DNA of 64,000 nt, from assembly GCA_903844635.1 (NCBI GenBank), contig CAIMUF010000081.1:62001-126000 (forward strand). The letters run 5' to 3'. Below, one piece after another: positions 2,323-44,553 of the stretch. The translations under genes were made by a program, and so were the position numbers. Positions within the stretch are counted from its first letter, which is position 1, and each line of letters opens with the position of its first letter. This DNA comes from an uncultured Sulfuricurvum sp. GTDB lineage: Bacteria > Campylobacterota > Campylobacteria > Campylobacterales > Sulfurimonadaceae. The notes under the pieces were generated by a model. That model was not told the DNA's origin and ran no database searches. It saw only the letters and a program-made list of their open reading frames with translations.

Positions 2323-2979
2323 GTGAAAAAATTTAATTTATTTAAAGAGATTATTGTTGTCAATCGCAGCGATTTTATGCTTGGACTCAACTCTAACAAA
2401 CGTTTTGCCATCAGCTATGCAGGTGACGTTGTCTTTGAACCTTTTGCACCCGATCTCATCTCTATTTATGAGGGAAGTATCGCTCCTGTTTCCCCTCTAG
2501 CGACTAATTTGGCACGTCCTATCAGTGACATCCTTGGCAAAAATTACCGTATCGTTGAAGATGAAGATCGCATACTCATAAAAGCCACAGCTGCGTGGCA
2601 GTCTATCATCGGATTTAATCAACGTCGCGCCATGTATGATGATACTACAGGTGATGGTATTGCCGAGTTTTCAGACAAAACTCTCGAAACTATTGGATGG
2701 CATGCTACAGAATTTAATATCCGATATCGTGATATTGTTGATCAATTTGAAGAAAAATGTGAAGGAATTTTGATCTGTATTGAGCAAGAAGAACCTTATC
2801 AGTTCAGCGGTCTTGGATTCTTATTTGAGTTAGAAGCAGCACAAAAACTCGCATTTGACTATTGTGCCGATATTGTCAAAGACACAATAGCGAATGATAA
2901 AGATTTTGCTACATTGAGTGACGATGAAGAAGAGGCTAGAGACTATTTTTTAGCTGGCCTAAATATCTCTCTAAAATAA
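2323..2979 (+). CDS. Conserved hypothetical protein next to ruvX
   Basis: I do not recognise a functional family. The product is soluble-looking and acidic, about 218 residues, with no signal peptide, membrane helix or cysteine cluster. A GTG start at 2323 (reading 'MKKFNLFKEIIVV') is preferred because AGGGG stands 5-7 nt upstream; an ATG at 2290 in the same frame has no ribosome site. The last 37-44 bp overlap the convergent ruvX gene, so the two mRNAs are complementary at their 3' ends. The repeated aromatic and acidic pattern and the intact frame argue for a real gene. Confidence 0.75.
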   Translation: MKKFNLFKEIIVVNRSDFMLGLNSNKRFAISYAGDVVFEPFAPDLISIYEGSIAPVSPLATNLARPISDILGKNYRIVEDEDRILIKATAAWQSIIGFNQRRAMYDDTTGDGIAEFSDKTLETIGWHATEFNIRYRDIVDQFEEKCEGILICIEQEEPYQFSGLGFLFELEAAQKLAFDYCADIVKDTIANDKDFATLSDDEEEARDYFLAGLNISLK

Positions 2980-3343
2980 TCTTAGCCGAAAGGGAGTCAA
3001 TGCGACCGTCGCGTTTATAACGGATTTCACCTTTCATTAGTGCTTCTGCTTCTTGAGAGCTGTAAGATTCATCTTGATAGGCAATTTCACCTGCAAATTC
3101 AACAAGATTCATAAAATGATTAACGCGACGACGCATCTCGTCTTCCGTGGTGCTTCCCATTGGAATACCGACCACGACTGTCGTTGCCTCGTATTCATTT
3201 AACACTTTCTTAACGTCGTTAGCCGCTTGATTACGGTTTTTTCGCTCTACGGCCATTAGCGGTGTAACGATTCCTGCTCCTGCATATAATGCTAATCCAA
3301 TCCGTTTTAATCCTAAATCAATCGCAATTATTGCACCCATCAT
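2936..3343 (-). CDS. ruvX: Putative Holliday junction resolvase RuvX/YqgF
   Basis: RNase H-fold protein of the YqgF/RuvX family, involved in 16S rRNA 5'-end maturation and/or Holliday junction processing. The N-terminal 'AIIAIDLGLKRIGLA' carries the catalytic Asp; 'VVVGIP' and the C-terminal 'SLSAKIILERYL' with its Asp/Ser are conserved. The frame is open to a TTG at 3355, but the ATG at 3343, or the one at 3340, is the likelier start: it overlaps the mnmE stop as ATGA and follows GGGG. It is the last gene of the rpmH-to-ruvX run. Confidence 0.92.
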   Translation of the reverse strand: MMGAIIAIDLGLKRIGLALYAGAGIVTPLMAVERKNRNQAANDVKKVLNEYEATTVVVGIPMGSTTEDEMRRRVNHFMNLVEFAGEIAYQDESYSSQEAEALMKGEIRYKRDGRIDSLSAKIILERYLGQLKNSL

Positions 3344-29524: not shown

Positions 29525-31636
29525 TTAGGTCAACCAGAATGTCACATGATACGCTATGTACGCGAGTAAATAGGCTACTATCGTCGTAAAAGCAAAGAGA
29601 TAGAAAAAATATTTAATTCCCCCTGCTTCACGCGTGAAAACAACCGATGCAGCTAAACACGGAAGGTATGTCATTATCACTACAATAAACGCCACTGCCG
29701 AAGCCAATGGGATATGAGAACTAATCGCATGCATTAGTGAGTTATCTGATTCGGTAGCATCACTGCCCAGTGAATACAAGACTCCCAGTGTCGAGACGAC
29801 TACCTCTTTTGCGGCCAATCCCGTCTGTAATGCCACTGCCATTTTCCAGTCAAAGCCAAGAGGAGCAAACAAAGGCTGAATTGTATGCCCGATCACCCCT
29901 AAAAAGCTTTGTTCCAATTGTGCTTCAGAGAGCTGGTTTTCTAAATTTCTTACCTCTTCTTTTGATGTTGCTGCTTCGATTTTTACCGTATACACTGCAT
30001 CAAGGGAACTGTCTTTTGGATACGTACTTAAAAACCATACAATTAATGATGCGGCAGCGATAAAAGTCCCGGCTTTTTTGAGGTACATCGTCGTTTTTGT
30101 CACTACGGTATGCCATATCAGCTTCACCGATGGAAGCCGATACTTTGGCATTTCCATAACAAATGGCTCATCAATCCCTTTAAACGCAGTAATCTTTAAT
30201 ACTTTAGCTGCAACTAATCCAATCATTGCGCCGAGAATATAGATGCCAAACAATACACTTCCCGCCATCTCGGGACCAAAAAATGCTCCGGTAAAAAGAA
30301 CATAAACCGGCAAACGGGCCCCACAGCTCATAAATCCAATGACAAATAATGTCAGCAGCCGATCCCGATCATTTTTTAGAATCCGTGCCGACATATACGC
30401 CGGTATCGAGCATCCGAATCCTGTAACGAGCGGGATAAATGACTGTCCGTGCAATCCAAATTTATGAAAAAATCCATCCAATAAAAAAGCTACTCGTGAC
30501 ATATACCCCGTTGCTTCAAGCAATGCAATCCCCACAAACAATATAACAATGTTGGGGACAAAAAGTACCACTGCCCCAACTCCTGAGATCACTCCATCCA
30601 CTACAAGAGATCGGATTTCATCATTGCTGATCGTGGCTCCTATGGCCGCGCCGAACCAGCCGAAAAAACCATTGATCCAATCCATCGGTATAGACCCGAG
30701 TTCAAAAGTAAGCTGAAACAATCCCCACATAAAAAAGAGAAAAATCGGTATTCCGAATATCGGATGAATCAATACGGCATCAATCTTTTCAGTCGTTGTC
30801 TTCTTCATCTGAGATTTGCTGTTGACTTTTACCGCTTCGGCAATAATTCCCCGATTAAAAGAGAAATACTCTTCTGCAAACGCCTCTTTCATATCATCCG
30901 TATCGTGATGGAGCAATACATGACGATCTGCTTCGATCAACATCGGCTGAAGCTCTGTCCATATAGGGTTATCGCGAAGTGTTCGGTAGGTCTTTTTCTC
31001 TTGTTTCAACAAATTGATAGCAATATCACGGTTACTGATAGACGCTTTAAAATGGTGCCGATTTAGGTACTCTTCAAGTTGTCCTATCTCCTCTTCCACC
31101 GCTTCACTAAAAATAAGTTTAGGCACTTTAAAATCATTTTCGTAAATCTCTAAAATCTTTTTGAGCAGTTTCCCCAAGCCCGTCTGTTCAACCGCAGAAA
31201 CTTTTATCGCTTCTACCCCTAAAAGCTGAGAAAGCATCCCCTCATCGATAAAAATACCTTCCTTTTTCGCTTCATCATTCATATTCAGCGCCAGAACCAT
31301 CTTTTTATTCATACCCATAAGTTCAGCGGTAAGTTGAAGATTTTTTTCAAGATTGGTCGAATCAACGACATTTAAAATGATGTCATACTCTTCATTGCAT
31401 AAAAAATCGTGAGTGACCCGCTCTTCGATCGAATAGTCGCTAAAAGCATAGGTTCCTGGAAGATCCACAACCCTGATCGAATATCCCTTAAATTCAAAAA
31501 CAACTTCGCTTTTTTCAACCGTTACCCCTGTAAAATTACCGACTTGCAGGCGTGCATTACTGATTGAATTAATCAGCATACTTTTACCGACATTGGGCTG
31601 CCCTACTAAGGCTACTTTAATTTTTTTATCGGACAT
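29525..31636 (-). CDS. feoB: Ferrous iron transporter FeoB
   Basis: 703 residues, complete. The N-terminal G domain has G1 'GQPNVGKSMLINS', G3 'DLPGTYAFSDYS' and G4 'LNMND'; after a helical GDI domain the membrane core contains two Gate motifs, including 'FGCSIPAYMSARI' and 'PCLAASVVFTREAGG'. It imports Fe2+ across the inner membrane and overlaps feoA by 11 bp. Confidence 0.97.
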   Translation of the reverse strand: MSDKKIKVALVGQPNVGKSMLINSISNARLQVGNFTGVTVEKSEVVFEFKGYSIRVVDLPGTYAFSDYSIEERVTHDFLCNEEYDIILNVVDSTNLEKNLQLTAELMGMNKKMVLALNMNDEAKKEGIFIDEGMLSQLLGVEAIKVSAVEQTGLGKLLKKILEIYENDFKVPKLIFSEAVEEEIGQLEEYLNRHHFKASISNRDIAINLLKQEKKTYRTLRDNPIWTELQPMLIEADRHVLLHHDTDDMKEAFAEEYFSFNRGIIAEAVKVNSKSQMKKTTTEKIDAVLIHPIFGIPIFLFFMWGLFQLTFELGSIPMDWINGFFGWFGAAIGATISNDEIRSLVVDGVISGVGAVVLFVPNIVILFVGIALLEATGYMSRVAFLLDGFFHKFGLHGQSFIPLVTGFGCSIPAYMSARILKNDRDRLLTLFVIGFMSCGARLPVYVLFTGAFFGPEMAGSVLFGIYILGAMIGLVAAKVLKITAFKGIDEPFVMEMPKYRLPSVKLIWHTVVTKTTMYLKKAGTFIAAASLIVWFLSTYPKDSSLDAVYTVKIEAATSKEEVRNLENQLSEAQLEQSFLGVIGHTIQPLFAPLGFDWKMAVALQTGLAAKEVVVSTLGVLYSLGSDATESDNSLMHAISSHIPLASAVAFIVVIMTYLPCLAASVVFTREAGGIKYFFYLFAFTTIVAYLLAYIAYHVTFWLT

Positions 31637-31856
31637 TGCATACCTCGATCAGTTCGGCTTCTTCACGGCGAAGCGCCAAAGAGACATTTCCCACTTTGAT
31701 TTCAAACGTGCTTTTGGAAATTCCACACTCGAGCATTTTTACCTCACATCCCTTCATCAGCCCAAAAGAGATTAAACGTTGTTTTAACGGACCGGTTGCC
31801 TTAATTCTTGTCACTGTCGCCACACCACCTTTGGTGCAGGCACTTAAGAGTGTCAT
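31626..31856 (-). CDS. feoA: Ferrous iron transport accessory protein FeoA
   Basis: SH3-like protein of about 76 residues with 'ACTKGGVATVTRIKATGPLK' and 'RLISFGLMKGCEVKML', characteristic of FeoA. The ATG at 31856 is chosen because AAGGA stands 4-5 nt upstream and the length then fits the family; longer starts (ATG 31871, TTG 31877) lack a ribosome site. It is the first gene of feoAB. Upstream lies a remnant of an outer-membrane protein gene rather than a normal leader. Confidence 0.93.
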   Translation of the reverse strand: MTLLSACTKGGVATVTRIKATGPLKQRLISFGLMKGCEVKMLECGISKSTFEIKVGNVSLALRREEAELIEVCNVR

Positions 31857-31882
31857 CGTATCCTTGTTCATTCTCAAAACCT

Positions 31883-31999
31883 TTAAAATGTATCGTTTAT
31901 TCGTGCGAGAAAACGGCTATACCCAGCATCCTTCTCTCCATCAAAATTTTTATCTCGATCCTCTATTTTAGCATAACTCACATCTGTACTCAACTTCAC
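31883..31999 (-). pseudogene. 3' remnant of an outer-membrane beta-barrel gene
   Basis: Read on the minus strand, this stretch translates without stop to 'VKLSTDVSYAKIEDRDKN' then 'FDGEKDAGYSRFLARINDTF' and a TAA at 31883-31885. Two amphipathic strands joined by a polar turn and a terminal Phe are the hallmark of the last beta-hairpin of a barrel porin. There is no start or body: upstream the frame runs into the 143-residue membrane protein gene. I infer a truncated porin or receptor gene that once preceded feoA. Confidence 0.5.
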
Positions 32000-32004
32000 A
32001 CTAA

Positions 32005-32019
32005 TAATTTTGATTATCT
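32005..32019. promoter_or_regulatory. Weak Fur-box-like site upstream of feoA
   Basis: A 7-1-7 match of 10/14 to TGATAAT-n-ATTATCA, with right half ATTATCT. It overlaps the stop codon of the 143-residue gene about 150 bp from feoA. Low confidence alone; listed because four better sites lie in the next 4 kb. Confidence 0.25.
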
Positions 32020-32445
32020 GAAACCCTGTAGTGTTTGCTTGAAGAGTAAAGTCCAAATCCATAGCAGTCCAATCTGAAAGCCGAAAAACGCAAAGAGTTT
32101 AAGTACGGCAAAGGATCCCCAACCAATACTAATAAACAGTGGGCTGAACTGATCAAGGAAAAAAAGAGTAAAGAGGAAATAGGTAGCTTTTTTTGTAGTT
32201 TGGGGATCAATGGTTTTAATAAACGCCAAAAAATGAAGCACTGCCATAAGAGCAATAGAGATAAAAAGGGTATGGGGCAGAGTCACTTCCAACAACCCAT
32301 GCAATGATTTATTTCCATAATACACTCTCACATCATGAACGCTAAATCCGACCAATCGTCCAAAAAGCACTACCCCTAAAAAGGCTTGCAGTATCAACAA
32401 GGTGCTAAAGGTCAAAGCTATAAACTGTAAAACTTTAGAATTCAT
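32014..32445 (-). CDS. Small membrane protein with conserved-looking histidines
   Basis: I do not recognise the family. The 143-residue product has four hydrophobic segments (about 7-30, 53-76, 85-107 and 113-135). Histidines fall in and near helix 2 ('SLHGLLEVTLPHTLFISI' and 'LMAVLHFLAF'), which would suit heme b or metal ligation. It starts exactly where the 159-residue gene ends and is the last gene of the porin-FMN operon. A role as membrane electron carrier for the FMN protein is inference only. Confidence 0.7.
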   Translation of the reverse strand: MNSKVLQFIALTFSTLLILQAFLGVVLFGRLVGFSVHDVRVYYGNKSLHGLLEVTLPHTLFISIALMAVLHFLAFIKTIDPQTTKKATYFLFTLFFLDQFSPLFISIGWGSFAVLKLFAFFGFQIGLLWIWTLLFKQTLQGFR

Positions 32446-32924
32446 TAGAATTTTTTCCGTAGAAGCCCTATGAGGGAATCTAGCCCCCCCATAATCATCA
32501 AGCTATGAAATAGGATAAATGCACTCAAAGAAAGAATGACTCCCGCACTGCCAAGTAACGGAGAAAAAAGCATCCCGATAGGATAAGCGAGGAGTGAGAG
32601 CAAGGAAAGGGTTAAGAAACTAATCATCATAACACGGCTGCGTCCCATGCGTGCATAGACAGAAGCGATAAGAACAAACGTAATGATAAGCCCAAAAAGA
32701 TCCGTATGAATCCCCAAAAGAAGATCATTAAAGCTCATCGGATCGATAAACTCCGCTTCATTACCCAATACGGTAGTAGTCCATGCTTTTGGTGTCAATC
32801 CATAATCTATCCCTTTTGCGATCATACTAAGCACCATAGCAAGAATAAAAGAGAGAAGCATTCCCATAATGATAGAGCGCATCACACTGTTATCAGAGAG
32901 TTTTTTAGAGGCGATAAATTTCAT
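32445..32924 (-). CDS. Small membrane protein
   Basis: 159 residues with four predicted helices (about 15-38, 68-90, 96-118 and 122-145). A His sits at each side of the membrane core: 'LLLGIHTDLFGLIITF' and 'FILFHSLMIMGG'. No known domain is recognised. It lies 2 bp downstream of the FMN-binding protein gene and overlaps the next membrane gene by one base, so the three proteins are very probably made together. Confidence 0.7.
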   Translation of the reverse strand: MKFIASKKLSDNSVMRSIIMGMLLSFILAMVLSMIAKGIDYGLTPKAWTTTVLGNEAEFIDPMSFNDLLLGIHTDLFGLIITFVLIASVYARMGRSRVMMISFLTLSLLSLLAYPIGMLFSPLLGSAGVILSLSAFILFHSLMIMGGLDSLIGLLRKKF

Positions 32925-32926
32925 TT

Positions 32927-33442
32927 TCAGGGCTTTACAATATCGATTAGAGAGAGGGCTACACGAGCTCCGTCGGTAATCGCACGAGCGGACAATGTTG
33001 CCCCCGTTGTGGTTGGAATATCTTGATTGAGCCGTAGGGTATTGGTATTGCTTTTATTATCAAATCCATCCAACCATGTTTTAGTGGGGAGATACTCGAT
33101 TGGCTCATTGAATGCGACGATTTCGATTGACTTTATTTTACCGTTCATGTCAATGAGATAGAGGGAAATAGCCGTTTTAGTCCGCACCTTTTTATTCAAA
33201 AGCACTCCGTATCCCACTGTTTTCAAGTCATTTTTAGCGATATAGAGGCGATATATTTTCGTCTCTATAGGCTGTTGTGACGCTTTGACAAGCTGTTGCA
33301 TTTGCACGTCATTTAAAATAACGTTTTGTTGCTCCACCGATTTGGCACCGAATGTCCGTTGAGTCAAGGCTACAGGATCACCCAAAACCTGAGCGAACGC
33401 CAAAAGAGGCACTACTAAAAGAAATAAAACGGTTTTCATCAA
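32927..33442 (-). CDS. Periplasmic FMN-binding domain protein (flavinylation substrate)
   Basis: 171 residues with a signal peptide ('MMKTVLFLLVVPLLAFAQ'). The FMN-binding domain, as in RnfG/NqrC, ends in 'DIPTTTGATLSARAITDG'; TTGATLS matches the S/T-G-A-T-x-S/T motif whose Thr receives FMN from ApbE. ApbE is encoded divergently just upstream of the operon. It should act as an extracytoplasmic one- or two-electron carrier. The gene overlaps the porin gene by 4 bp. Confidence 0.88.
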   Translation of the reverse strand: MMKTVLFLLVVPLLAFAQVLGDPVALTQRTFGAKSVEQQNVILNDVQMQQLVKASQQPIETKIYRLYIAKNDLKTVGYGVLLNKKVRTKTAISLYLIDMNGKIKSIEIVAFNEPIEYLPTKTWLDGFDNKSNTNTLRLNQDIPTTTGATLSARAITDGARVALSLIDIVKP

Positions 33443-34779
33443 AATATAAATCCTAATCCAAACGAGTAGATACCTTCATTACTATAGTTGGCTGAGTCGG
33501 CATCATTTTTGTTATGACGCACTTTGTACTCCCCTTTTAAGACCACTTGTTCATGGGGGAAGTAATTCAGACCGTAGGTAAAGCTTTCTGTATTTCCAAA
33601 CGCAATCCCATTGACCATTGATGTGGCTAAATTGTAGTTTTCATATTGAAAAAAGATCGGTAATCGTGCATTTGCTTGTGTAAAATATGGTAAGACATTA
33701 TACTCTAAATTCACATAGCCTCCCCGTGCAGATTCGGGATGAAATGGAAAATCGAGAGTTGCATCACCGACTGTATGTGAACCAAGATAGGAATCCGCAT
33801 GGCTTAAATGAGCTTGGGTATAAAGTCCTTTGATTTTAAAGCCCTCGTTTTGGTATTGAGCATGAAGATCAGCAAGGGTCAAGCGTCCCACTTCTTTATC
33901 ATTCGTAGAGGGACCCGCTTCTCCCGTATAGAAGCTTGCACCTACGAGGAGACCGTTAATACCGGTGTAATCGAGACGAGCAACGGCAGCAAGATTGGAG
34001 GTTTGAGCGTTTCTCTCATATCCACCGCGACGACCGTTATTAATCCAGTTCTTTCCATAAGTATCCTCTTCAACGGCTCCGTCATGTTCAGCAAGACCCA
34101 TATCCAATGCGACGACTGCCCCTGCCGTATAGTTAAAATTCTCCGTTTTACCGTGGATGGTGAGACCGTTTTCATGCCAGGTAGAGGGAATAAGATAGGT
34201 TTCGACATCGGGACGTTTGACGGTATTAAATAAAACGGGTTCGTGATTTAGACTAACTAAGCCCATCGGGACGACTTGCTGCCCAATTCGGATATTGAAC
34301 GTCGGATCGAGTAAAAAATCGACATAAAGCTGTTCAACTGAAACTTCTTCTCCACCATGTTCAAACTCAATTTCAGAGTTTAGGATGATATTGTCACTAA
34401 ATTTATAACCTATATAAGGAACGAAACGGTTCACTTCGGTTTCATTAATACCGCTATTTTTATCGTGTGAGAACTGGATCTCTCCATAACCGCCAATGGA
34501 AAGAGGATTTTTAGAGTAATAGACCTTAGAAGCTGCCGCCCCCATGCCAGGCTCAGTTTTATCCATATCAACGGTGCCAAACGAGGTCGCGTTTTGAACA
34601 TTAATAAGCTCGGATGTGAGGGCATTGGTTTGTTCACCCTGTTTTTTATCATTCGCTTCTAGCGCACTGAGACGTTCACTTAGAATTTTAAGCTGTACTT
34701 TTAGGTCACTTAGCTCATCAGCCGATAATACTGTGCCAATCGCCAAAGCGGCTACAGTACTTAGGAAAAGTTTTTTCAT
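33439..34779 (-). CDS. Outer-membrane porin-like protein
   Basis: 446 residues with a signal peptide (to 'ADE' near residue 21), a short coiled coil ('DLKVQLKILSERLSALEAN'), then a beta-barrel rich in alternating aromatic strands and ending in Phe ('FGLGFIF'). It resembles the phosphate-selective or multi-domain porins annotated in related genomes; substrate unknown. First gene of the porin, FMN-binding, membrane, membrane operon. A Fur-like site (34795-34809) lies between its -10 box and the start codon. Confidence 0.85.
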   Translation of the reverse strand: MKKLFLSTVAALAIGTVLSADELSDLKVQLKILSERLSALEANDKKQGEQTNALTSELINVQNATSFGTVDMDKTEPGMGAAASKVYYSKNPLSIGGYGEIQFSHDKNSGINETEVNRFVPYIGYKFSDNIILNSEIEFEHGGEEVSVEQLYVDFLLDPTFNIRIGQQVVPMGLVSLNHEPVLFNTVKRPDVETYLIPSTWHENGLTIHGKTENFNYTAGAVVALDMGLAEHDGAVEEDTYGKNWINNGRRGGYERNAQTSNLAAVARLDYTGINGLLVGASFYTGEAGPSTNDKEVGRLTLADLHAQYQNEGFKIKGLYTQAHLSHADSYLGSHTVGDATLDFPFHPESARGGYVNLEYNVLPYFTQANARLPIFFQYENYNLATSMVNGIAFGNTESFTYGLNYFPHEQVVLKGEYKVRHNKNDADSANYSNEGIYSFGLGFIF

Positions 34780-34794
34780 TTGCGCATCCTTTTA

Positions 34795-34809
34795 TGATAG
34801 TGATTATTG
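34795..34809. promoter_or_regulatory. Fur-box-like site, porin promoter
   Basis: TGATAGT-G-ATTATTG matches 11/14 arm positions of the 7-1-7 Fur consensus. It lies 15 bp upstream of the porin ATG and just downstream of a minus-strand TATAAT (34818-34823), a position that would block initiation. Confidence 0.5.
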
Positions 34810-34817
34810 ATTGCGAA

Positions 34818-34823
34818 ATTATA
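34818..34823 (-). promoter_or_regulatory. -10 element of the porin operon
   Basis: CTCTATAATTTCG on the minus strand gives a perfect TATAAT about 38 bp upstream of the porin start. No consensus -35 is seen. Confidence 0.5.
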
Positions 34824-34852
34824 GAGCGGCAAGCTGAAAACAATATTAATAA

Positions 34853-34867
34853 TGCAAACAATTATCA
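34853..34867. promoter_or_regulatory. Fur-box-like site upstream of apbE
   Basis: TGCAAAC-A-ATTATCA: the right half is perfect and the left half weak (11/14 in all). It lies 11 bp before the apbE ATG at 34879 and upstream of the porin promoter, so it could serve both. Confidence 0.45.
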
Positions 34868-34878
34868 TTTAGGAAAAA

Positions 34879-35862
34879 ATGCCGTTCAAATGGTACACTT
34901 TCGGTATGAAAGCATTATTCTTTTTTTTATCTCTAGTAACTTTTCTTTTCGGCGATGAGCGGGTTCAGATGCATATGGGAACCCTCATCAGTATCAATAT
35001 CACTGACAGTGAAGAGGTTTTTATACCCGCAGGGGATGAAAATCTTACGGATGAGGTATTCGCACTTTTTAAAGATTTGGATGAGAAACTCTCAACCTAT
35101 AAAAGTGATTCGGAAATTTCACGATTGAATCGTGATCATGAAGCCAATCTATCGAATGTAACGCGTACTGTTTTAGAGCGGTCAATGGAAATGAATCACA
35201 AAACGCAAGGTGCTTTTGATATAACAATCGGTTCTTTAAGCCATGGGGCATACCATTTCGGAACACAGGAGAAACTTCCAACATCGGCTGAGATCCATCA
35301 TGCTTTGACATTTGTAGGTGGAAACCATATTTGGATGGATCACGAGAAAGTACGTGTGACAAAGGGAACGATTATAGATTTAGGCGGTATTGGCAAAGGA
35401 TACGCTGTTGATCTCTCTATCACTTTATTAGAACGCCATGGAGTCAAAAAAGCGGTGATTGCTGCATCGGGAGATATTGGGTGCTTAGGAGAATGTGAGG
35501 TACGTATCCAAGATCCTTTTCATTCTAAAGGTATCGTTGCAACCGTAACTTCAATTTTGCCTCGATTTGCCATCAGTACCAGTGGTAATTATGAACGCTA
35601 TATTCGTAATAAAGAACATAATCATCTTCTCAATCCGAAAACAGGAAAATCTGAGCAAAATTTTGCTTCAGTTACATTGTTTGGAAAAGGGGATAACACC
35701 GCGCTAGATGCAATCGCCACAGGTGTTTCTATTATGAGAGTAGATCAGGCAATCGCACTATTAGAGCGTGAAAATATCGGATATTTTTTGATTCAAAATG
35801 ATGGACATATATTTTATAGTAAGAAATTAGAAGGAGTGACGATAGAAAATAACGAACATTAA
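34879..35862 (+). CDS. apbE: FAD:protein FMN transferase ApbE
   Basis: 327 residues. ApbE moves FMN from FAD onto a Thr of exported flavoproteins. A signal-like hydrophobic segment ('MKALFFFLSLVTFLFG') follows nine extra residues; the ATG at 34879 is kept since AGGA is 5-6 nt upstream, though ATG 34906 would give a tidier signal. Family blocks are 'MGTLISINI' near residue 32, 'VDLGGIGKGYAVD'-type 'IIDLGGIGKGYAVDLSI', 'AASGDIGCLG' and the Mg2+-binding 'NTALDAIATGVSIM'. The obvious substrate is the FMN-binding protein of the divergent operon. Confidence 0.94.
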   Translation: MPFKWYTFGMKALFFFLSLVTFLFGDERVQMHMGTLISINITDSEEVFIPAGDENLTDEVFALFKDLDEKLSTYKSDSEISRLNRDHEANLSNVTRTVLERSMEMNHKTQGAFDITIGSLSHGAYHFGTQEKLPTSAEIHHALTFVGGNHIWMDHEKVRVTKGTIIDLGGIGKGYAVDLSITLLERHGVKKAVIAASGDIGCLGECEVRIQDPFHSKGIVATVTSILPRFAISTSGNYERYIRNKEHNHLLNPKTGKSEQNFASVTLFGKGDNTALDAIATGVSIMRVDQAIALLERENIGYFLIQNDGHIFYSKKLEGVTIENNEH

Positions 35863-35865
35863 ACA

Positions 35866-35880
35866 TAATAACGATTATCA
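35866..35880. promoter_or_regulatory. Fur box 1 of the peroxidase promoter
   Basis: TAATAAC-G-ATTATCA matches 12/14 arm positions of the 7-1-7 Fur consensus. It ends 3 bp upstream of the -35 hexamer at 35884. Confidence 0.65.
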
Positions 35881-35883
35881 CTA

Positions 35884-35912
35884 TTGACTTATAGTATCTC
35901 TTATGATATATT
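35884..35912 (+). promoter_or_regulatory. Promoter of the diheme peroxidase, TTGACT-N17-TATATT
   Basis: -35 TTGACT (35884-35889) and -10 TATATT (35907-35912) are 17 bp apart, near consensus. The two Fur boxes at 35866-35880 and 35915-35929 flank it on both sides, and the start codon is at 35944. Confidence 0.7.
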
Positions 35913-35914
35913 TC

Positions 35915-35929
35915 TGAAAATCATTATCA
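35915..35929. promoter_or_regulatory. Fur box 2 of the peroxidase promoter
   Basis: TGAAAAT-C-ATTATCA matches 13/14 arm positions of the Fur consensus. It lies directly after the -10 box and covers the expected transcription start. Confidence 0.75.
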
Positions 35930-35943
35930 TAAAGGATGTTCGA

Positions 35944-37059
35944 ATGAAAACATCAAGTTTCATAACCTTAGCACTCTCTACCACATTGGTTTTTCTCTTG
36001 AGTGGCTGCAATGAAGGTTCTACTTCCTCTGCACCCTCTTCTAGTGAAGTTGATTTAGCAACTCTAGGTGAGGCACTATTTTTTGATACAAATCTCTCCG
36101 AACCTTCAGGTCAATCGTGTGCATCGTGTCATACAGCGGCAAATGGATTCGCCGATCCTGATAGCAATTTGTCTACATCTGAAGGTGTTATTGCAGGACA
36201 ATTTGGAACACGAAACACTCCGACAGCTGCCTATGCAGCATTCGTTCCTGCTTTTATTTATGATGTTATAGAAGGACTCTATACGGGAGGACAATTCTTA
36301 GATGGTCGCGCTTCACTGCTTGAAGATCAAGCCAAAGGACCACCTCTAAATCCGGTAGAAATGCACAATCCCAATAAGGCATCGTATGTTTCCAAAGTAG
36401 CGGCAGCATCCTATGCTCCTTTAGCCAAAAAAATCTTCGGGCTAAATGTATTTGATGACCCAGAAACGGCATACGATAAAATTGCACGCGCTATTGCCGC
36501 GTATGAGCGGACGAAAGTATTTTCACCCTTTAGCTCAAAATTTGATGCATATATTAAAGGAACGGCAACGCTAAGTGCACAAGAGCTCGAAGGGTTATCT
36601 CTATTTGAAGGAAAAGCGCAGTGTGTCGCATGTCATCCGACCCGTCCTACCGCTGACGGTACACCGGGATTGTTCACTGATTTTACGTATGACAATCTAG
36701 GAGTTCCAAAAAATATGGCTATTCCTGCCTATGCCGCCGATGCCAACTTTACCGATATCGGTCTTGCTGGAAATATTAAAGTTATTGCCGATGGACGAGT
36801 GGCTGAAAATCGAGGAAAATTCAAAGTAGCAACATTACGTAACATCGCTATAACGGGACCGTATATGCACAATGGTGTATTTAAAACACTTAAAGAAGTA
36901 GTATCATTTTACAATACCCGGGATACAAACCAAAGCCGTTGGGGCGCTGCGGAAATTCCTGAAACAGTCAATCGCACCGAACTTGGGAATCTAGGACTCA
37001 GTGATGCTGAAGAAGATGCTATTGTTGTATTTTTACAAACACTTACGGATGGCTATTAA
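35944..37059 (+). CDS. Diheme cytochrome c peroxidase/MauG-family lipoprotein
   Basis: 371 residues. The signal peptide ends in a lipobox ('LVFLLSGC'), so the protein is a membrane-anchored periplasmic lipoprotein. Two heme sites CASCH (about residue 60) and CVACH (about 227) and the conserved 'LDGRASLLEDQAKGP', 'ATLRNIAITGPYMHNG' place it in the CcpA/MauG family. It reduces H2O2 with electrons from c-type cytochromes, or oxidises another substrate. AAAGGA before ATG 35944 decides the start. Fur boxes on both sides of its promoter suggest iron repression. Confidence 0.93.
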   Translation: MKTSSFITLALSTTLVFLLSGCNEGSTSSAPSSSEVDLATLGEALFFDTNLSEPSGQSCASCHTAANGFADPDSNLSTSEGVIAGQFGTRNTPTAAYAAFVPAFIYDVIEGLYTGGQFLDGRASLLEDQAKGPPLNPVEMHNPNKASYVSKVAAASYAPLAKKIFGLNVFDDPETAYDKIARAIAAYERTKVFSPFSSKFDAYIKGTATLSAQELEGLSLFEGKAQCVACHPTRPTADGTPGLFTDFTYDNLGVPKNMAIPAYAADANFTDIGLAGNIKVIADGRVAENRGKFKVATLRNIAITGPYMHNGVFKTLKEVVSFYNTRDTNQSRWGAAEIPETVNRTELGNLGLSDAEEDAIVVFLQTLTDGY

Positions 37060-37133: not shown

Positions 37134-38327
37134 ATGCGATTATTTTCCTTGTTTAGCGCTATTGTTCTCGTACCTGCATTCTCGTATGGGATGAGTTTTA
37201 ACACTCTATGCAATCATGCCTACAACGCCTCAAGTGACCTTATCCAAACAAATGGTCACCTATTGGCCAATACACACACTAAGGCTGCGGCTCTTGCGGG
37301 TGAGCCTTTATCGATTGAGGGAAGTGCAAGCAGTGTCACAGGAAAAGACCCTGTAGACAATGGGATGCGCTATGGTGCTATGCTCAATTACCAGCTCAAA
37401 CAATTCGGCGTCCAAGAAGCACAATCTAATTACTATGACCAAAATATGAAAAATCTTCAGCAAGAGATTCAACTTCAACAAAAAATTATCCAAGTCATTC
37501 TAAAACACGATTGGCTCATAGCCTTGATCGAACAAGAGAAAATTAAGATTTTAGGGGAGAAAGTCACTTTATCCAGGGATGCCGCCCTGATAGGTCAAAA
37601 AAAAGTCTCTGCCGGACGAATGTCACAAATGGAACTGTATCGATTGCAAAGCGATGAGCGTACGGCTGTTCAAGAGTTTGCTATGGGAGAAATGGAGCTT
37701 GAACATGCTCAGCACTCTCTTCAAGAAGCGGCAATGCTCCACGAAGAAATCGTTGTTGATGATTTACACTTCTCCTTCATTGCGGATGATAATGCTACGG
37801 AAGAGAGAATCAACAATGCCGCGATCCTGCAAACTCTCACCTCTCAAATCAACATTCTCGATACTCGCATTAAAAGTACCCATTACGAGGGGAAAGAATT
37901 CATATCACTGGGAGCCGGTGCGACGCATGAACCGGTACAAAACAGTATTGACTTTCGTGTTAACATACCCTTGAGTTTTAGTGAAAAAAATGATCAAAAA
38001 ATCGCTGCATTGATGGCAGAAAAAAGTGCACTTCTTCATCGACGAGACGTAACACACCAAAAATTGCAAATGAATATCCATACTCTTTTAGAGCATTTAC
38101 AAACGAGAGAAACGCGATATAAAGATTCCTTAACAGCGCAAAAGTACCAAAAAACGCTGATGGATATGGCTCAAAAAGGTTATGAGGCAGGAGTTGTCAG
38201 CCAATTTGAATATTTGTCAACGAAAAACAGTTTTTATGACATGCAATTGCGTGCGGTAGAACTTAAACGCGAATACATTCAAGAGATGAGTGCAATGGAA
38301 GAAAAATTAGGGAGAATTTGGTTATGA
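37134..38327 (+). CDS. TolC-family outer-membrane efflux protein
   Basis: 397 residues with a signal peptide (about 1-19) and long heptad-bearing helices, e.g. 'NLQQEIQLQQKIIQVIL' and 'YIQEMSAMEEKLGRIWL', typical of the outer-membrane channel of a tripartite RND pump. It is slightly shorter than average (usual 420-470). First gene of the efflux operon; its stop TGA overlaps the ATG of the adaptor gene. Confidence 0.87.
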   Translation: MRLFSLFSAIVLVPAFSYGMSFNTLCNHAYNASSDLIQTNGHLLANTHTKAAALAGEPLSIEGSASSVTGKDPVDNGMRYGAMLNYQLKQFGVQEAQSNYYDQNMKNLQQEIQLQQKIIQVILKHDWLIALIEQEKIKILGEKVTLSRDAALIGQKKVSAGRMSQMELYRLQSDERTAVQEFAMGEMELEHAQHSLQEAAMLHEEIVVDDLHFSFIADDNATEERINNAAILQTLTSQINILDTRIKSTHYEGKEFISLGAGATHEPVQNSIDFRVNIPLSFSEKNDQKIAALMAEKSALLHRRDVTHQKLQMNIHTLLEHLQTRETRYKDSLTAQKYQKTLMDMAQKGYEAGVVSQFEYLSTKNSFYDMQLRAVELKREYIQEMSAMEEKLGRIWL

Positions 38328-39364
38328 AATCACTATTACTATTACTGGCAATAACAACAGCTGCGATGGCGCAAATCACTATCAGTGATGCACAAATGAA
38401 AAAGCTTGGGATTACAACGAGTAATGTCAATATTAGCAACACTGCCCTTATTGGGCCACTAATCGCCAAAATCGATTATGACGAAGATAAATCCAAAAGC
38501 TACTTTTTAGATCAAGAGGCCTCTGTGATCTCGCTCAATGTCCGCCAAGGAGATCTTGTCCAAAAAGGCTCGACGTTATGTACGATTGCTTCACCTTCTC
38601 TTATGGCAAACAGTTTTGAGCTTAAAGAACTGCAGAATCGCTATAAAGCGATGCAAAACAACGCTAAAAAAGATGAAACACTCTACAAAGAGGGAATAAT
38701 TTCATATCGTGATTATCAGACCAGCGCACTCGAAGCATCAACACTTCGTTCTCGAATCTCTGTCCTGGAGAGTCAGTTCGCTATCGCAGGAGTTCGTGCT
38801 AACGCAAATGGTACTATGAATGTGATCGCTCAAAAAAGTGGTATTGTCACGAATGCCCCACTGGCTGTTGCCGAAAAAATCACCCCTTATCAGCCCTATT
38901 TTAGGATTTCAGACTCTAGCGCAATGATTGCCATGATTAATATCTCCCCAAGGCTTATCTCCTCTGTTTCCAAAGGCGACACTGTTTTGTCCAAAGACGC
39001 TCACCCTATTGGTACTGTTATTTCCGTCTCTCCTGCCATTAGCGGCTTGACAAACTCAGCCATCGCCATAGCAAAGATTCGTGGCTCACAGTTGCGCGCC
39101 GGAACGACCATCGGTGTATTAGTATCCGCACAAAAACCAACTGCCAGCATCCTAATCCCGTCGCATGCATTAGCACAGTTTGGTGGAAAAACCATCTGTT
39201 TCATTCGTAACACTACTGGATTTAGCGCTCAAGAACTCCTAATCGTGGCAACAAGCAAAGAGGGTGTTTTGGTACGACAAAAAGGGATTGATACAAATAC
39301 CAAAGTAGCCATCAGCGGTCTTATCATTCTAAAAGGCGCAATGAGCGGATTGGGGTTTGAATAA
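38324..39364 (+). CDS. Periplasmic adaptor (membrane fusion) subunit of RND pump
   Basis: 346 residues with a signal peptide ('MKSLLLLLAITTAAMA'). A barrel-sandwich hybrid domain ('EASVISLNVRQGDLVQKGST') is split by a helical hairpin (about 105-150), followed by a beta-barrel domain. It is shorter than CusB and lacks the N-terminal Met-rich metal-binding segment. It links the TolC-like channel and the CzcA/CusA-like pump. The ATG at 38324 overlaps the previous stop. Confidence 0.88.
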   Translation: MKSLLLLLAITTAAMAQITISDAQMKKLGITTSNVNISNTALIGPLIAKIDYDEDKSKSYFLDQEASVISLNVRQGDLVQKGSTLCTIASPSLMANSFELKELQNRYKAMQNNAKKDETLYKEGIISYRDYQTSALEASTLRSRISVLESQFAIAGVRANANGTMNVIAQKSGIVTNAPLAVAEKITPYQPYFRISDSSAMIAMINISPRLISSVSKGDTVLSKDAHPIGTVISVSPAISGLTNSAIAIAKIRGSQLRAGTTIGVLVSAQKPTASILIPSHALAQFGGKTICFIRNTTGFSAQELLIVATSKEGVLVRQKGIDTNTKVAISGLIILKGAMSGLGFE

Positions 39365-42300
39365 TGTTAAGCTCAATTATTGAGTTTTCACTCAAACAGC
39401 GGATTGTTATTTTACTCATGGCGGTGGGGATACTCATAGGAGGGGTCTATTCGTTTCTTAAAATTCCAATCGATGCATTCCCTGACATCTCATCTACGCA
39501 AGTAAAAATAATTCTAAAAGCTCCCGGGATGTCTCCTGAGGAGGTAGAATTACGAGTAGTACGACCACTGGAAGCTGAGCTCATGGGGTTGGAAAACCAA
39601 ACCATGCTTAAAAGTACCTCTAAATACGGTATCGCCGATATTACCATCGATTTCAAAGACGGTACAGATGTCTATCGTTCCCGCGCTCAAGTTTCTGAAA
39701 AACTTTCAGGAGCAATGAGTGCCCTTCCAAAAGGCGTTAACGGTGGTATGGCACCCATCACGACTCCATTGGGAGAAATTTTTATGTTCACCATCGAGGG
39801 AAATATCTCGCAGCAAGCCAAGCGCGAATTACTTGATTTTACTATCCGTCCTGCCCTGCGAGGTGCAAAAGGAGTTGCGGACATCAATGCTCTGGGCGGT
39901 GAAGCACGTACCATCACCATTGTTCCCGATGTTAGTGCCATGGGACGACTTGGAATTACCATCTCTACCCTTGAGCAGGCTTTAAGCGAAAACCTCAAAA
40001 ATGACGGTGCAGGAAGACTTGATAAAGGCGATGAAGGCTATTTGGTCAAAGTCCAAAGCGGTGTCAAGAACAAAGATGAAATCGGCAACATTACCATCCA
40101 TTCGCACAATGGACCGATACGTATCAGCGATTTTTGTGCCATTAACGAAGAATCTCGCACCCGCATGGGATTTGTAACCAAAGACGGACTCGGCGAAGCA
40201 ACCGAGGGTCTTGTTATGGCATTGCGAGGAGCAAATGCCAAAGAGAGCATTATTGAGATCAAAGAGCGTCTTGCCGTCCTTGCACCAACACTTCCGGAAG
40301 GAGTCACAATTGTCCCTTTTTATGATCGTAGTGAACTCACCCAAAAAGCGGTCGATACTGTCTCTAAAGCCCTCACGGAAGCAGTTGTACTGGTTATCAT
40401 ACTCTTGCTCCTCTTTTTAGGAGATGCTCGTGCGGCGATCAGTGTCGCTGTGATATTGCCATTGGCCATTTCAATAGCCTTTATCCTCATGCAAGCCACT
40501 GGAATTACTGCAAATCTCATGAGTTTGGGAGGATTAGCCATTGCCGTGGGAATTCTCGTCGATTCCGCTGTTGTTGTTGTGGAAAATACCTTTGCAGCAC
40601 TGGGTGAAAAAAATCAAAAACTTCCCAAACTCCATCTCGTTTATCGAGCTAGCAAAGAGGTGAGCCTCTCGGTATTCAGCGGTCTACTTATTATTTCTGT
40701 TGTCTTTTTACCTCTTCTGTCCCTTGAAGGTTTAGAAGGAAAGCTTTTTGCCCCTGTTGCCATGACGATTGTCTTTGCACTCTTAGGCTCTCTTGTCCTA
40801 TCTTTGACCGTCATTCCTGTTGTCGCATCGCTATTGCTAAAATCCACTCCTCATCATGAGACAAAATTGGATATGTTTTTTGCTCGTCTGTACAAACCAC
40901 TCCTTTCTTTTGCCCTCAACCGCACTAAAACACTTTTTACCGGAGCTATTATTTTCTTAATACTTAGTTTTTCACTCTACACACTCGTAGGTAAAACATT
41001 TATGCCCACACTCGATGAGGGTGATATTATTTTAGCCATTGAGCCCATACCTTCGATCTCTCTTGAAGCCTCTAAAGAGCTAAATCTCGCCATCCAAAAA
41101 GAGTTAATCAAAAATATTCCTGAAATTAAAACCATCGTTGCCCGTACAGGATCGGATGAAATGGGCTTGGATCCCATGATGCTCAACCAAACGGATACAT
41201 TTTTAGTTCTAAAACCAAAAAAAGAGTGGAAAGCCGCTTCTAAAGAAGAAATCCTCCAAAACATCACAACAGCCCTCAAACCTTTTGCAGGGGTTGGATT
41301 TAGTTTTACACAACCCATCGATATGCGTATCTCTGAAATGCTCACCGGTTCTCGCGGAGATTTGGCAATCAAAATTTTTGGTACTGACATCAACACGTTA
41401 AATGCGCTCAGTTCGCAGGTAGGGAAAATTTTAGAGGGAATTTCCGGCTCCAGTGAAGTTATCGTTACTCTCAATGCTGGAATCAACTATCTCACCGTAA
41501 CACCGGATCGTTTTGCAACCGCGAACACAGGGGTAAGCAGCGGTGAATTACAACAATTTTTAAAAGCCTCACTGGAGGGTATTATCGTCGATACTTTACC
41601 AGAGGGGAATATCCGAACCCCGGTTATGATCCGTTTGGACAGTGACATTGCAAAAGATTTTGATAAATTTAGCGCACTGGAGATCCCTCTTATGGAAGGG
41701 GGGAGTGTCCCTCTTGCAAGTATCGCAATGATTACCCAAAATGAAGGACCCGTACAAGTCATTCGTGAAAATAACGAACGACTCAGTGTTGTCCGATCAA
41801 ACGTTGAAAATCGAGATTTAGTGGGGTTTGTTGAGGAAGCAAAACAAAAAATAAACACTGATATTAAACTCCCAGATGGCTACCACATCACCTATGGAGG
41901 ACAGTTTGAAAATCAGCAGCGCTCTTCAGCACGTTTGATGGCGGTGGTTCCTGTCAGTATCGTGGTCATTTTCTTTATTCTCTTTTTCACGTTTCGCTCA
42001 GTGAGCAACACACTGCTTATTTTGCTCAATATCCCTTTTGCGATTACAGGGGGAATCATATCTTTGTTTATCAGCGGTGAATATCTCTCTGTACCTGCCT
42101 CGGTAGGCTTTATCGCCCTCTTTGGTATTGCAGTACTCAACGGTATTGTCATGGTGAGCTATTTCAACACCCTGCTGGCCAATGGCTATACCATCGATGA
42201 AGCAGTGGGTGAAGGAGCGCGCAGACGACTTCGTCCCGTACTGATGACGGCATTTATCGCGGCACTTGGATTGCTGCCATTACTATTTGCAACCGGGGTC

Positions 42301-42423
42301 GGAAGTGAGATTCAAAAACCGCTCGCAATCGTTGTACTGGGAGGATTGGTCACATCGACGATTCTTACTCTCCTGATTTTACCGCCTGCCTTTAAAATGA
42401 TCTACAATCGAGGTAAAAAATGA
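39364..42423 (+). CDS. Heavy-metal efflux RND transporter (CzcA/CusA family)
   Basis: 1019 residues, the inner-membrane proton-driven pump. Twelve hydrophobic helices with two large periplasmic loops are seen. Family marks: 'AFPDISSTQVKIILKAPGMS' near residue 37, 'GILVDSAVVVVENTFAAL' in helix 4 with the essential Asp and Glu, and 'GARRRLRPVLMTAFIAALGL'. The porter-domain 'QPIDMRISEMLTGSRGD' is nearer CzcA (divalent cations) than CusA (Cu+/Ag+), but the metal is not certain. It overlaps the DUF3240 gene by 4 bp. Confidence 0.93.
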   Translation: MLSSIIEFSLKQRIVILLMAVGILIGGVYSFLKIPIDAFPDISSTQVKIILKAPGMSPEEVELRVVRPLEAELMGLENQTMLKSTSKYGIADITIDFKDGTDVYRSRAQVSEKLSGAMSALPKGVNGGMAPITTPLGEIFMFTIEGNISQQAKRELLDFTIRPALRGAKGVADINALGGEARTITIVPDVSAMGRLGITISTLEQALSENLKNDGAGRLDKGDEGYLVKVQSGVKNKDEIGNITIHSHNGPIRISDFCAINEESRTRMGFVTKDGLGEATEGLVMALRGANAKESIIEIKERLAVLAPTLPEGVTIVPFYDRSELTQKAVDTVSKALTEAVVLVIILLLLFLGDARAAISVAVILPLAISIAFILMQATGITANLMSLGGLAIAVGILVDSAVVVVENTFAALGEKNQKLPKLHLVYRASKEVSLSVFSGLLIISVVFLPLLSLEGLEGKLFAPVAMTIVFALLGSLVLSLTVIPVVASLLLKSTPHHETKLDMFFARLYKPLLSFALNRTKTLFTGAIIFLILSFSLYTLVGKTFMPTLDEGDIILAIEPIPSISLEASKELNLAIQKELIKNIPEIKTIVARTGSDEMGLDPMMLNQTDTFLVLKPKKEWKAASKEEILQNITTALKPFAGVGFSFTQPIDMRISEMLTGSRGDLAIKIFGTDINTLNALSSQVGKILEGISGSSEVIVTLNAGINYLTVTPDRFATANTGVSSGELQQFLKASLEGIIVDTLPEGNIRTPVMIRLDSDIAKDFDKFSALEIPLMEGGSVPLASIAMITQNEGPVQVIRENNERLSVVRSNVENRDLVGFVEEAKQKINTDIKLPDGYHITYGGQFENQQRSSARLMAVVPVSIVVIFFILFFTFRSVSNTLLILLNIPFAITGGIISLFISGEYLSVPASVGFIALFGIAVLNGIVMVSYFNTLLANGYTIDEAVGEGARRRLRPVLMTAFIAALGLLPLLFATGVGSEIQKPLAIVVLGGLVTSTILTLLILPPAFKMIYNRGKK

Positions 42424-42707
42424 ACTTGAATAGAATGGATATATACTTTGATGTCGCGAATAAAGACACCTTAGTTGATTTATTATTGGAAGAAGGATAT
42501 GATGATTTTTATTTTTCTCCTTGTAAACGCTACGGGGCAGGAGCCTTTTTGGTAAGTTCTGAAGAACAAGTAAGTGCCAGACGGGATTTTGGGTTATTTA
42601 GCCTTTTTCTGCAAAAAGCAGAAGCTATCGTTCTGGCGGCAGCTATCAAAGAAGAACTAAAAGACAAAACGATTAAGATATTTATAAACGAGGTCAAAGA
42701 GCTTTAA
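42420..42707 (+). CDS. DUF3240 family protein of the efflux operon
   Basis: A 95-residue, ferredoxin-like (PII/CutA-size) soluble protein. 'DTLVDLLLEEGYDDFYFSP' and the C-terminal 'TIKIFINEV' fit DUF3240, a family known from metal RND operons. It may be a cytoplasmic metal or pump regulator; function unproven. Translationally coupled to the pump (ATGA overlap) and adjacent to the response regulator without a gap. Confidence 0.8.
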   Translation: MNLNRMDIYFDVANKDTLVDLLLEEGYDDFYFSPCKRYGAGAFLVSSEEQVSARRDFGLFSLFLQKAEAIVLAAAIKEELKDKTIKIFINEVKEL

Positions 42708-43355
42708 ATGCGATTACTAATTGCCGATGATGAAAAAGAGATGCTCGAACTGTTAAAGCTTTCACTCGAAAACAAAGAGTGGATTATAGATACAGCTTGC
42801 GATGTCGAAGAGGCAAAAAGCTACTTAGATGCGTACCATTATCAAGTTTTTTTGGTTGATCGAACGTTTCATGGAAAAGATCGTGTGCAAGAGCTGATTA
42901 TCTATGCAAAAACTAAAAACAATACGTTAGGCATTCTTGTACTGAGTGCACTTGGAAGCATCGATGAAAAAGTGCAAGGGCTAGAGTATGGCGCAGATGA
43001 CTATGTCGAAAAGCCGTTTGATATTAAAGAGCTCCGAGCCAGACTTGTCGCCCTTTCGCGCCGATTTTCACCAACGATCAAAATATTTCGAGGCATAGAA
43101 ATCGATCCTCACAATAAAACGATTCGAAAAGAAAAAAGCGAAATTCTCCTTAGTGCTAACGAGCATAAACTCTTTTTTTACCTTCTTGAACGCGCTAGTG
43201 TTGCTTCACGCGATGAAATCATGGATGCTCTTTACAATAATCCTCAAAACATTACCCCCAATGCTATTGATGAATTAGTGGGGCGCCTGCGTCGTAAACT
43301 TGACCCTGCTATTATAAAAACTGTCAAAACACGAGGATATGTCATTGAGCTTTAA
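42708..43355 (+). CDS. OmpR-family response regulator of the efflux operon
   Basis: Receiver (1-115) and winged helix (about 125-215). 'LLIADDEKEMLELLKLSLE' gives the acidic pocket; the phospho-acceptor is the Asp in 'FLVDRTFHGKD' and the Lys is in 'YVEKPFDIKEL'. The receiver's loop after the Asp (RTFHGKD) departs from the common LMLPxxDG. 215 residues. Probably controls the metal pump with the kinase that overlaps its end. Confidence 0.92.
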   Translation: MRLLIADDEKEMLELLKLSLENKEWIIDTACDVEEAKSYLDAYHYQVFLVDRTFHGKDRVQELIIYAKTKNNTLGILVLSALGSIDEKVQGLEYGADDYVEKPFDIKELRARLVALSRRFSPTIKIFRGIEIDPHNKTIRKEKSEILLSANEHKLFFYLLERASVASRDEIMDALYNNPQNITPNAIDELVGRLRRKLDPAIIKTVKTRGYVIEL

Positions 43356-44553
43356 TTGGAGCAAATCCCTTAAATTCAAGATTTCCTTTATCTTCGCCAT
43401 TCTCATGGCAATTGCCTTTAGCCTCAACTGGATGGTTGCTCTCCAGACGATGCGCAGTGAAAAAATAAGTGATATTCAAAAGGTTCTTAAACATTTATTG
43501 AACGAAAGTAACGATGAATACATTACGCAGCCGCTCACCCCAGATAGTTCCCTGACCTTTTTATACTCTATCCCTCACAATCAAATGATTCTTGATGACT
43601 CCGAAGTATCTGCTTTACGTTTTTTGGCCTCTAAGCATCCTTATATTCCGTACGATAATGAGATTGTCGCCTCCGTACAACAACCTAACAGTATCTATCT
43701 CAATGCCATTAGTAATTCACGAAAAATTGATACGGCACTCGATAAATACGGTGAAAAGCTCTTAGCGCGCTACCTCTTTTCATTGCTTGCTATTTTACTG
43801 ATCAGTATATTTTTACTCAACTACTACATGAAATCCTTAGCTGTATTAGCCAAAAAAACTCATGATTGGCAAATAGGTGATCCCTTTGATTTTTCACTGG
43901 ATAACGCAGGCAGCGAGATAAAAGAAGTATCGATCGCTTTTGAATCGCTTATTCGTAAAATAGAAGGATTTAGGAGAAAAGAAGGAGAACTGTTCAAAGA
44001 AGCAGCTCATGAGCTAAAAACACCTCTCGCACTTATGCGTTCACGCTTGGATGTGTACGAGTATACCCAAGGATATGATAAAAATAAATTTATCGTTGAT
44101 TTGGGACATGATATCGAGCGTTTAACAACGGAATTGAAAAATGTTCTTTTTTTAGAAAGTTCCGATTATGAAGACCCCATAGCCCTAGACATAACTACAG
44201 CACTACGAAATATCGTTCAGAAGGTAGACATTCTCGCAAAACGAAAACAACTCCTGCTTCAGCTTCCCTCTGAAAGTTTTATCGTTACAGCCCCTGAGCG
44301 ATTACTCAAAAAAGTTCTCTTAGCATTGATTGAAAATGCCATGACGTATGCTCCGGAAAATAGCCAAATTCATATAAAGATTGACCCTATCATACGAACT
44401 ATTACCATAACCAACGATTCCGGTCATGAAAAATACCTCTTCAGCTCCAAAATAGGACATAAAATGCTGCAAAGACTCAGCGAAGAGCTCAATTATACGT
44501 ATGAAATCACCCAACATGACTCTCAATACGCCATCACTCTTAAATTTTCGTAA
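43339..44553 (+). CDS. Sensor histidine kinase of the efflux operon
   Basis: 404 residues: helix 1 (about 12-34), periplasmic sensor (35-145), helix 2 (about 147-168), HAMP-like linker, dimerisation helix with phospho-His in 'EAAHELKTPLALMRSRLD', and an ATPase domain ('LLALIENAMTYAPENSQI') whose C-terminal half is short and lacks a clear GxGLGL box. It overlaps the regulator by 17 bp with an AGGAT site inside it. The metal-binding residues of the sensor cannot be named. Confidence 0.88.
   Translation: MSLSFNWSKSLKFKISFIFAILMAIAFSLNWMVALQTMRSEKISDIQKVLKHLLNESNDEYITQPLTPDSSLTFLYSIPHNQMILDDSEVSALRFLASKHPYIPYDNEIVASVQQPNSIYLNAISNSRKIDTALDKYGEKLLARYLFSLLAILLISIFLLNYYMKSLAVLAKKTHDWQIGDPFDFSLDNAGSEIKEVSIAFESLIRKIEGFRRKEGELFKEAAHELKTPLALMRSRLDVYEYTQGYDKNKFIVDLGHDIERLTTELKNVLFLESSDYEDPIALDITTALRNIVQKVDILAKRKQLLLQLPSESFIVTAPERLLKKVLLALIENAMTYAPENSQIHIKIDPIIRTITITNDSGHEKYLFSSKIGHKMLQRLSEELNYTYEITQHDSQYAITLKFS

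Follow-up and report, generated by a model that had tools for sequence, protein, structure and literature searches.

What might an operon do that joins an outer-membrane porin to an exported flavin protein and two small membrane proteins without a Pfam name? Such an operon lies in a stretch of 64,000 nucleotides from an uncultured Sulfuricurvum sp. of the Sulfurimonadaceae (contig CAIMUF010000081.1; hereafter the window); the nearest relatives of this genome in the genome collection carry the label Sulfuricurvum. The four genes of the operon encode the porin, an FMN_bind protein and membrane proteins of 159 and 143 residues (m159 and m143), and apbE, the gene for a FAD:protein FMN transferase, is divergent from it; we refer to the five genes together as the cassette. 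An initial annotation of the window had placed all open reading frames (ORFs) of the locus where we find them, and had read them as an electron chain that reduces ferric iron for import by the neighbouring FeoB. Our analysis supports a flavin chain under iron regulation, with an anatomy suited to electron transfer, but not the linkage to FeoAB. We favour, with a probability of roughly 0.57, the reading that the operon and apbE form an iron-starvation electron-export chain, in which electrons would pass from menaquinol through a b-type cytochrome to covalently bound FMN and on to ferric iron.

Linkage of the five genes and their Fur-like boxes

Of 298 Campylobacterota genomes, the same 23 carry the genes for m159 and FMN_bind, side by side in each; the one extra m159 match (in genome G293, without FMN_bind) is a fragment with an E value of 9e-4. 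Three starting points, namely m143, a profile of m159 and a profile of FMN_bind, converge on the same Campylobacterota genomes. A second collection of 80 loci, selected by FMN_bind alignment and in agreement with the searches begun from m143 and m159, belongs entirely to Campylobacterota (Sulfuricurvum, Sulfurimonas, Sulfurovum, Hydrogenimonas and unnamed relatives). Neighbours were counted within 5 kb in the 50 of these loci that have at least 4 kb of flank on each side: m159 and m143 are each present in 48, apbE in 46 and a homologous porin, as the operon's first gene, in 45. These counts bear out the linkage of the membrane proteins to FMN_bind and ApbE on which the initial annotation had staked its reading. 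The orientation of apbE varies: it is transcribed divergently in the 15 Sulfuricurvum cases, and in the 51 others it lies downstream in convergent orientation. A DNA similarity search of plasmids found no m159, while plasmid matches to FMN_bind led to the proteobacterial loci described below.

Neither feoA nor feoB lies within 5 kb of the cassette in any of the 50 loci, the one distant feoA being that of locus L112. The conserved unit is therefore the five genes, and feoAB beside the cassette is a local accident; the span first proposed, which began at position 31626, had the genes right and took in a feoA that is outside the unit. Several other neighbours are optional. The riboflavin synthesis gene ribBA, a fitting neighbour for the flavin chain, adjoins apbE in 22 loci, a gene for an MntP-type manganese exporter occurs in nine (11415-11966 in L028, and eight others; in some it follows straight after m143 on the same strand) and a multihaem cytochrome in eight. 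In several Sulfurimonas (for example S. indica; in L029 at 2434-3537) a multihaem c-type cytochrome of 367 residues follows m143 in the operon, and a longer electron path is possible there. The di-haem enzyme next to apbE in the window had been labelled a peroxidase; it is MauG-like, to judge from its haem motifs (CASCH79 and CVACH247) and from a tyrosine that aligns to Tyr294 of MauG, and not a classical peroxidase. It is only an occasional partner of the cassette, since a MauG-like gene lies within 5 kb in just four of the 50 loci.

Fur-like sites were scored against the classical 19-base Fur box. In the window, sites with at least 13 of 19 matching positions occur in all three intergenic regions of the locus, ahead of feoA, between porin and apbE, and ahead of the di-haem gene. 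At a threshold of at least 14 of 19, the 64 kb contain 13 sites where about 4 are expected by chance, and five of them, in three clusters, fall in these intergenic regions. The boxes noted in the initial annotation are also conserved across genera: the operon promoter carries a site of at least 14 of 19 in 47 of 53 loci, compared with 1 of 60 operon-internal regions and 1 of 50 convergent-apbE control regions. When only intergenic sequence is counted, the same threshold is reached by 40 of 44 operon promoters and by 8 of 178 other promoters on the same contigs, none of which shares the cassette's intergenic region (Fisher p ~2e-31, with related genomes counted as independent); among low-GC control promoters the count is 1 of 33. 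The letters of the promoter vary between genera while the Fur-like box is kept, and in several loci with no porin ahead the box precedes the FMN_bind gene (L136, L137, L140, L145 and L146). By this box at its promoter, conserved in relatives, the operon appears to lie in a Fur-type regulon.

A further iron context is found in a few loci. In L136, L137, L140 and L142 the FMN_bind gene adjoins an operon whose products are a pair of imelysins, a di-haem protein of the DHOR type, a protein resembling fatty-acid hydroxylases, a MauG-like protein and a porin from the family of the cassette porin. This operon, in the order imelysin-DHOR-imelysin-FA_hydroxylase-porin-MauG, is divergent from the FMN_bind gene or runs into it (these loci and L150); L089 has such neighbours in part, and in L137 a FUR-family regulator gene stands beside the operon. 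The imelysin/DUF1111 operon of Pseudomonas is under Fur control and has been given a role in iron uptake (PMC3143127). The Fur-like boxes thus support an iron link for the cassette, as does the imelysin/di-haem operon next door in a few loci. In genome G266 the FMN_bind copy on the imelysin side is without m159 and m143 of its own, and a complete cassette is located elsewhere in the genome.

The flavin protein and the membrane pair

The cassette's FMN protein is the sole FMN_bind protein of the genome, and its family profile matches the solved RnfG (9eri_G) with an E value of 2.4e-9. The S/T-GAT flavinylation motif claimed for it is present (IPTTTGATLSAR), with G147, A148 and T149 invariant among 17 relatives. 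The cassette apbE encodes an apparent signal peptide, and covalent FMN is to be expected from the established biochemistry of ApbE. A second ApbE of the genome (L003, G000:C55:89971-90720) is encoded at a separate site and has no obvious signal peptide; it is preceded by an EF-hand protein with a C-terminal TTTAGATT, possibly a flavinylation substrate of another kind that lacks an FMN_bind domain.

No Pfam model matched m159 or m143, and 74 relatives of the former and 71 of the latter gave no consistent match. The two proteins are paralogues, with hhalign values of 95.4% (17 rows each) and 97.5% (E 6e-12, deeper sets), and hhalign scores against unrelated membrane families are near zero. AlphaFold returns confident four-helix models for both, in which an amphipathic helix follows helix 1, and from the charges we would place both termini of each protein in the cytoplasm. 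Comparison of these models with the PDB yields generic helical bundles only (best Foldseek E 0.8; top Z of about 10 in VIA-align, in the helical-bundle range), so that neither protein can be named by its fold.

The histidines to which the initial annotation drew attention include conserved ones in both proteins. In the widest set H73 and R92 of m159 are conserved in 80 of 80 proteins and H140 in 77 of 80, while H58 and H71 of m143 are found in 77 of 77. The latter two lie 13 residues apart on one helix (H-x12-H), as do the ligands of b-haem in cytochromes of the ferric-reductase/NOX-like and bc types. There is no cysteine in m159 or m143, and no invariant acidic residue in their helices. This layout would suit a split two-haem b-type cytochrome that passes quinol electrons to periplasmic FMN, and the simplest reading is a heterodimer with one haem between H58 and H73 and another between H71 and H140.

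Relatives in Proteobacteria bear on this reading. Plasmids of Ideonella and Bradyrhizobium carry the gene order porin-FMN_bind-ApbE-4TM, where 4TM is a four-helix membrane protein. The FMN_bind proteins of the proteobacterial plasmid loci and of the cassette are homologous, as are porin (E 2e-55 for Ideonella, 4e-45 for Bradyrhizobium) and ApbE in these two; the Ideonella operon begins with a MauG-like gene. In Methylocystis, Sphingomonas and Novosphingobium, FMN_bind-ApbE-4TM stands behind a barrel or an unnamed protein, and in Methylocystis heyeri (L250) the three genes are flanked by multicopper oxidase genes on one side and a ferritin-like gene on the other. Whereas the Campylobacterota have two paralogues with two conserved histidines each, the proteobacterial 4TM protein is single and has four, two in helix 2 and two in helix 4. 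The second half of the 4TM set is DUF4405-like (hhalign 71%), and a haem role of the Campylobacterota pair is more likely on account of these two features. The weak alignment of the 4TM set with m143 (23%) is only suggestive of a relationship, but the comparison as a whole suggests single-chain and split versions of one device.

Proposed chain, alternatives and layout in the window

In the chain that we propose, ApbE would attach FMN covalently to the periplasmic FMN_bind protein, and m159 and m143 would form a heterodimeric b-type cytochrome, with the H58 (m143)/H73 (m159) haem near the periplasmic side and the second haem, held by H71 (m143) and H140 (m159), deeper. The cytochrome would draw electrons from the menaquinol pool and reduce the FMN; NADH, the other donor considered in the initial annotation, is unlikely, as the cassette has no nucleotide-binding or Fe-S protein and hence no candidate subunit. 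The substrate of the FMN protein would be ferric iron or a ferric chelate that enters through the co-expressed porin, and the ferrous iron produced would be imported by FeoB or another ferrous transporter, whose gene lies elsewhere than beside the cassette in most genomes. As feoAB is unlinked to the cassette, FeoB is a candidate importer on general grounds. Under sufficient iron, Fur would repress the operon.

Several observations weigh against this chain. One is the absence of FeoAB linkage just mentioned. PerR-type boxes resemble Fur boxes and are not separable from them by consensus scoring, and the classical consensus used here finds no Fur-like box at the proteobacterial relatives. By Pfam and profile comparison, m159 and m143 have no significant homology to any known cytochrome family. 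Finally, H140 is replaced by Asn in three m159 proteins (L074, L119 and L141), so these species may have lost or altered the second of the presumed haem sites.

The best surviving alternative, though we think it unlikely, is an iron-regulated periplasmic electron supply that serves something other than iron, for example a di-haem enzyme of MauG-like or DHOR type, the repair of methionine or the defence against peroxide, under a PerR- or Fur-type switch. The MauG-like enzyme does adjoin the cassette in the window and lies inside the operon in L123 and L142, and flavin/haem membrane chains can serve repair, as in the MsrQ systems. However, the di-haem gene is nearby in only 4 of the 50 loci, most cassettes are without any enzyme, and the imelysin/DHOR neighbours themselves form an operon of the iron-uptake type (PMC3143127). 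Less probable again is an inner-membrane metal permease, in which ferrous iron (or manganese) would cross by way of the histidines of m159 and m143, having been reduced by the FMN protein immediately before. Such a permease would be consistent with the paralogy of the two four-helix subunits, with their conserved His, Arg and Lys residues and with the MntP neighbours in 9 of 50 loci, but no acidic residue is invariant in the helices, H-x12-H within a single helix is a spacing that fits b-haem, and the proteobacterial counterpart has four histidines in the manner of DUF4405 and FezC. Use of the cassette as an outlet for respiratory or extracellular electrons, by dissimilatory reduction of metals or of flavin shuttles, is improbable. 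Eight of the 50 loci do have a multihaem c-type cytochrome within the operon or close to it, and porins occur in such conduits, but most loci have no multihaem partner and Fur-type repression in the iron-replete state has the wrong sign for respiratory use of iron.

The genes of the operon are tightly packed in the window (Table 1): the porin stop and FMN_bind start overlap (TGATG), a gap of 2 bp separates FMN_bind from m159, and stop and start codons overlap again between m159 and m143 (TAATG). For FMN_bind the ATG at 33439 is preferred over the TTG at 33442. The di-haem gene, next after apbE, has a promoter-like site at 35884-35912 (10 of 12 matching), and feoA has a separate one at 31993-31965, downstream of m143; feoAB is probably its own transcription unit. 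A Pfam scan of the locus names FMN_bind, ApbE, CCP_MauG, FeoA and FeoB. Directly past the di-haem gene, positions 37134-44553 hold genes for an outer-membrane factor, a membrane-fusion protein and a CusA-like heavy-metal RND efflux protein, and then a two-component system.

Table 1. Genes and Fur-like boxes of the cassette locus, in positions of the window
Feature	Position	Strand	Evidence
Outer-membrane porin, first gene of operon	33439..34779	-	distant Porin_O_P, Pfam E 3e-4, slightly below cut-off
Exported FMN_bind protein with TTGAT flavinylation motif	32927..33439	-	Pfam FMN_bind 26.9 bits, above cut-off (22)
m159, four-helix membrane protein	32445..32924	-	invariant H73 and R92, near-invariant H140; AlphaFold pLDDT 90.8
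m143, four-helix membrane protein, paralogue of m159	32014..32445	-	invariant H58 and H71; AlphaFold pLDDT 95.4
apbE, exported FAD:protein FMN transferase	34879..35862	+	Pfam ApbE 212 bits
MauG-like di-haem enzyme, two CxxCH	35944..37059 (ORF 35884-37059, better ATG near 35944)	+	MauG alignment E 5e-67
feoA	31626-31877	-	Pfam FeoA
feoB	29525-31636	-	Pfam FeoB
Fur-like boxes, divergent porin/apbE promoter	34790..34866	.	13-14 of 19; position kept in relatives
Fur-like boxes flanking sigma-70-like promoter of di-haem gene	35861..35934	.	up to 15 of 19
Fur-like box upstream of feoA	32000..32018	.	14 of 19

Comparison with known systems

No account of the five-gene cassette was found in the literature searched. 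The earlier statement that no described system has this exact set holds only narrowly, given the proteobacterial plasmid loci with porin-FMN_bind-ApbE-4TM and the iron-linked flavinylation clusters already on record (PMC8238504). The published flavinylation clusters have carriers that are PepSY-like, MsrQ-like, DsbD, NapH-like or NQR/RNF-like; some lie beside iron transporters, and a tie to iron reduction has been documented (Meheust 2021, PMC8238504). These clusters and the cassette have in common an exported FMN_bind protein, ApbE, a dedicated membrane electron carrier and an iron-assimilation context, and Fur repression is a feature of some of the published members. The cassette differs in its fixed porin partner and in a putative carrier that falls outside all five classes by Pfam and consists of two paralogous four-helix subunits.

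DUF4405 and FezC, small membrane proteins with links to apbE or to iron, have experimentally demonstrated haem b, and FezC has been modelled as a homodimer with shared haem sites (Huang 2024, PMC11334425). In these families, as in m159 and m143, the histidines are the most conserved residues; theirs are four in one six-helix chain, while in the cassette the four are spread over the four-helix pair. The DUF4405 model of Pfam matches none of the 145 m159 and m143 members at E 0.5, and PepSY and Ferric_reduct/MsrQ likewise find no Pfam match among them. A NapH-like Fe-S carrier finds no Pfam match either, and the pair lacks the cysteines for it. In hhalign comparisons with DUF4405, Ferric_reduct/MsrQ and Ni-hydrogenase cytochrome b sets nothing was significant, the values being at most 1.1% for DUF4405 and a weak 18% for m143 against Ferric_reduct/MsrQ. 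The pair thus fails the DUF4405, PepSY and NapH tests but appears to act like such carriers. Whether it represents a new class of flavinylation partner is, in our estimate, evenly balanced: such a class would be a heterodimeric two-haem b-type cytochrome, in which a four-helix unit was duplicated and the labour divided so that each subunit holds half the ligands, and its electrons would go, in free-living Campylobacterota, to a ferric reductase with covalent FMN under Fur control.

Periplasmic or membrane ferric reduction for ferrous transport is a theme that the proposed chain shares with other systems. The diheme ferric reductase FrcB carries out ferric reduction that feeds FeoAB, and we know of no covalent-flavin protein, ApbE or porin partner in the FrcB system or in that of FsrB. 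For FsrB of Bradyrhizobium, ferric iron reduction that feeds FeoAB is described (PMC10760861). Flavinylation-based iron reduction and the DUF4405/FezC cytochromes have already been described, and what the cassette would add is a carrier variant. If our reading is correct, this variant is a membrane carrier beyond the published flavinylation-partner classes and a natural split form of a single-chain four-histidine cytochrome, and it would provide the sulfur-oxidising Campylobacterota (Sulfurimonas, Sulfuricurvum, Sulfurovum and Hydrogenimonas) with a defined periplasmic route of iron reduction.

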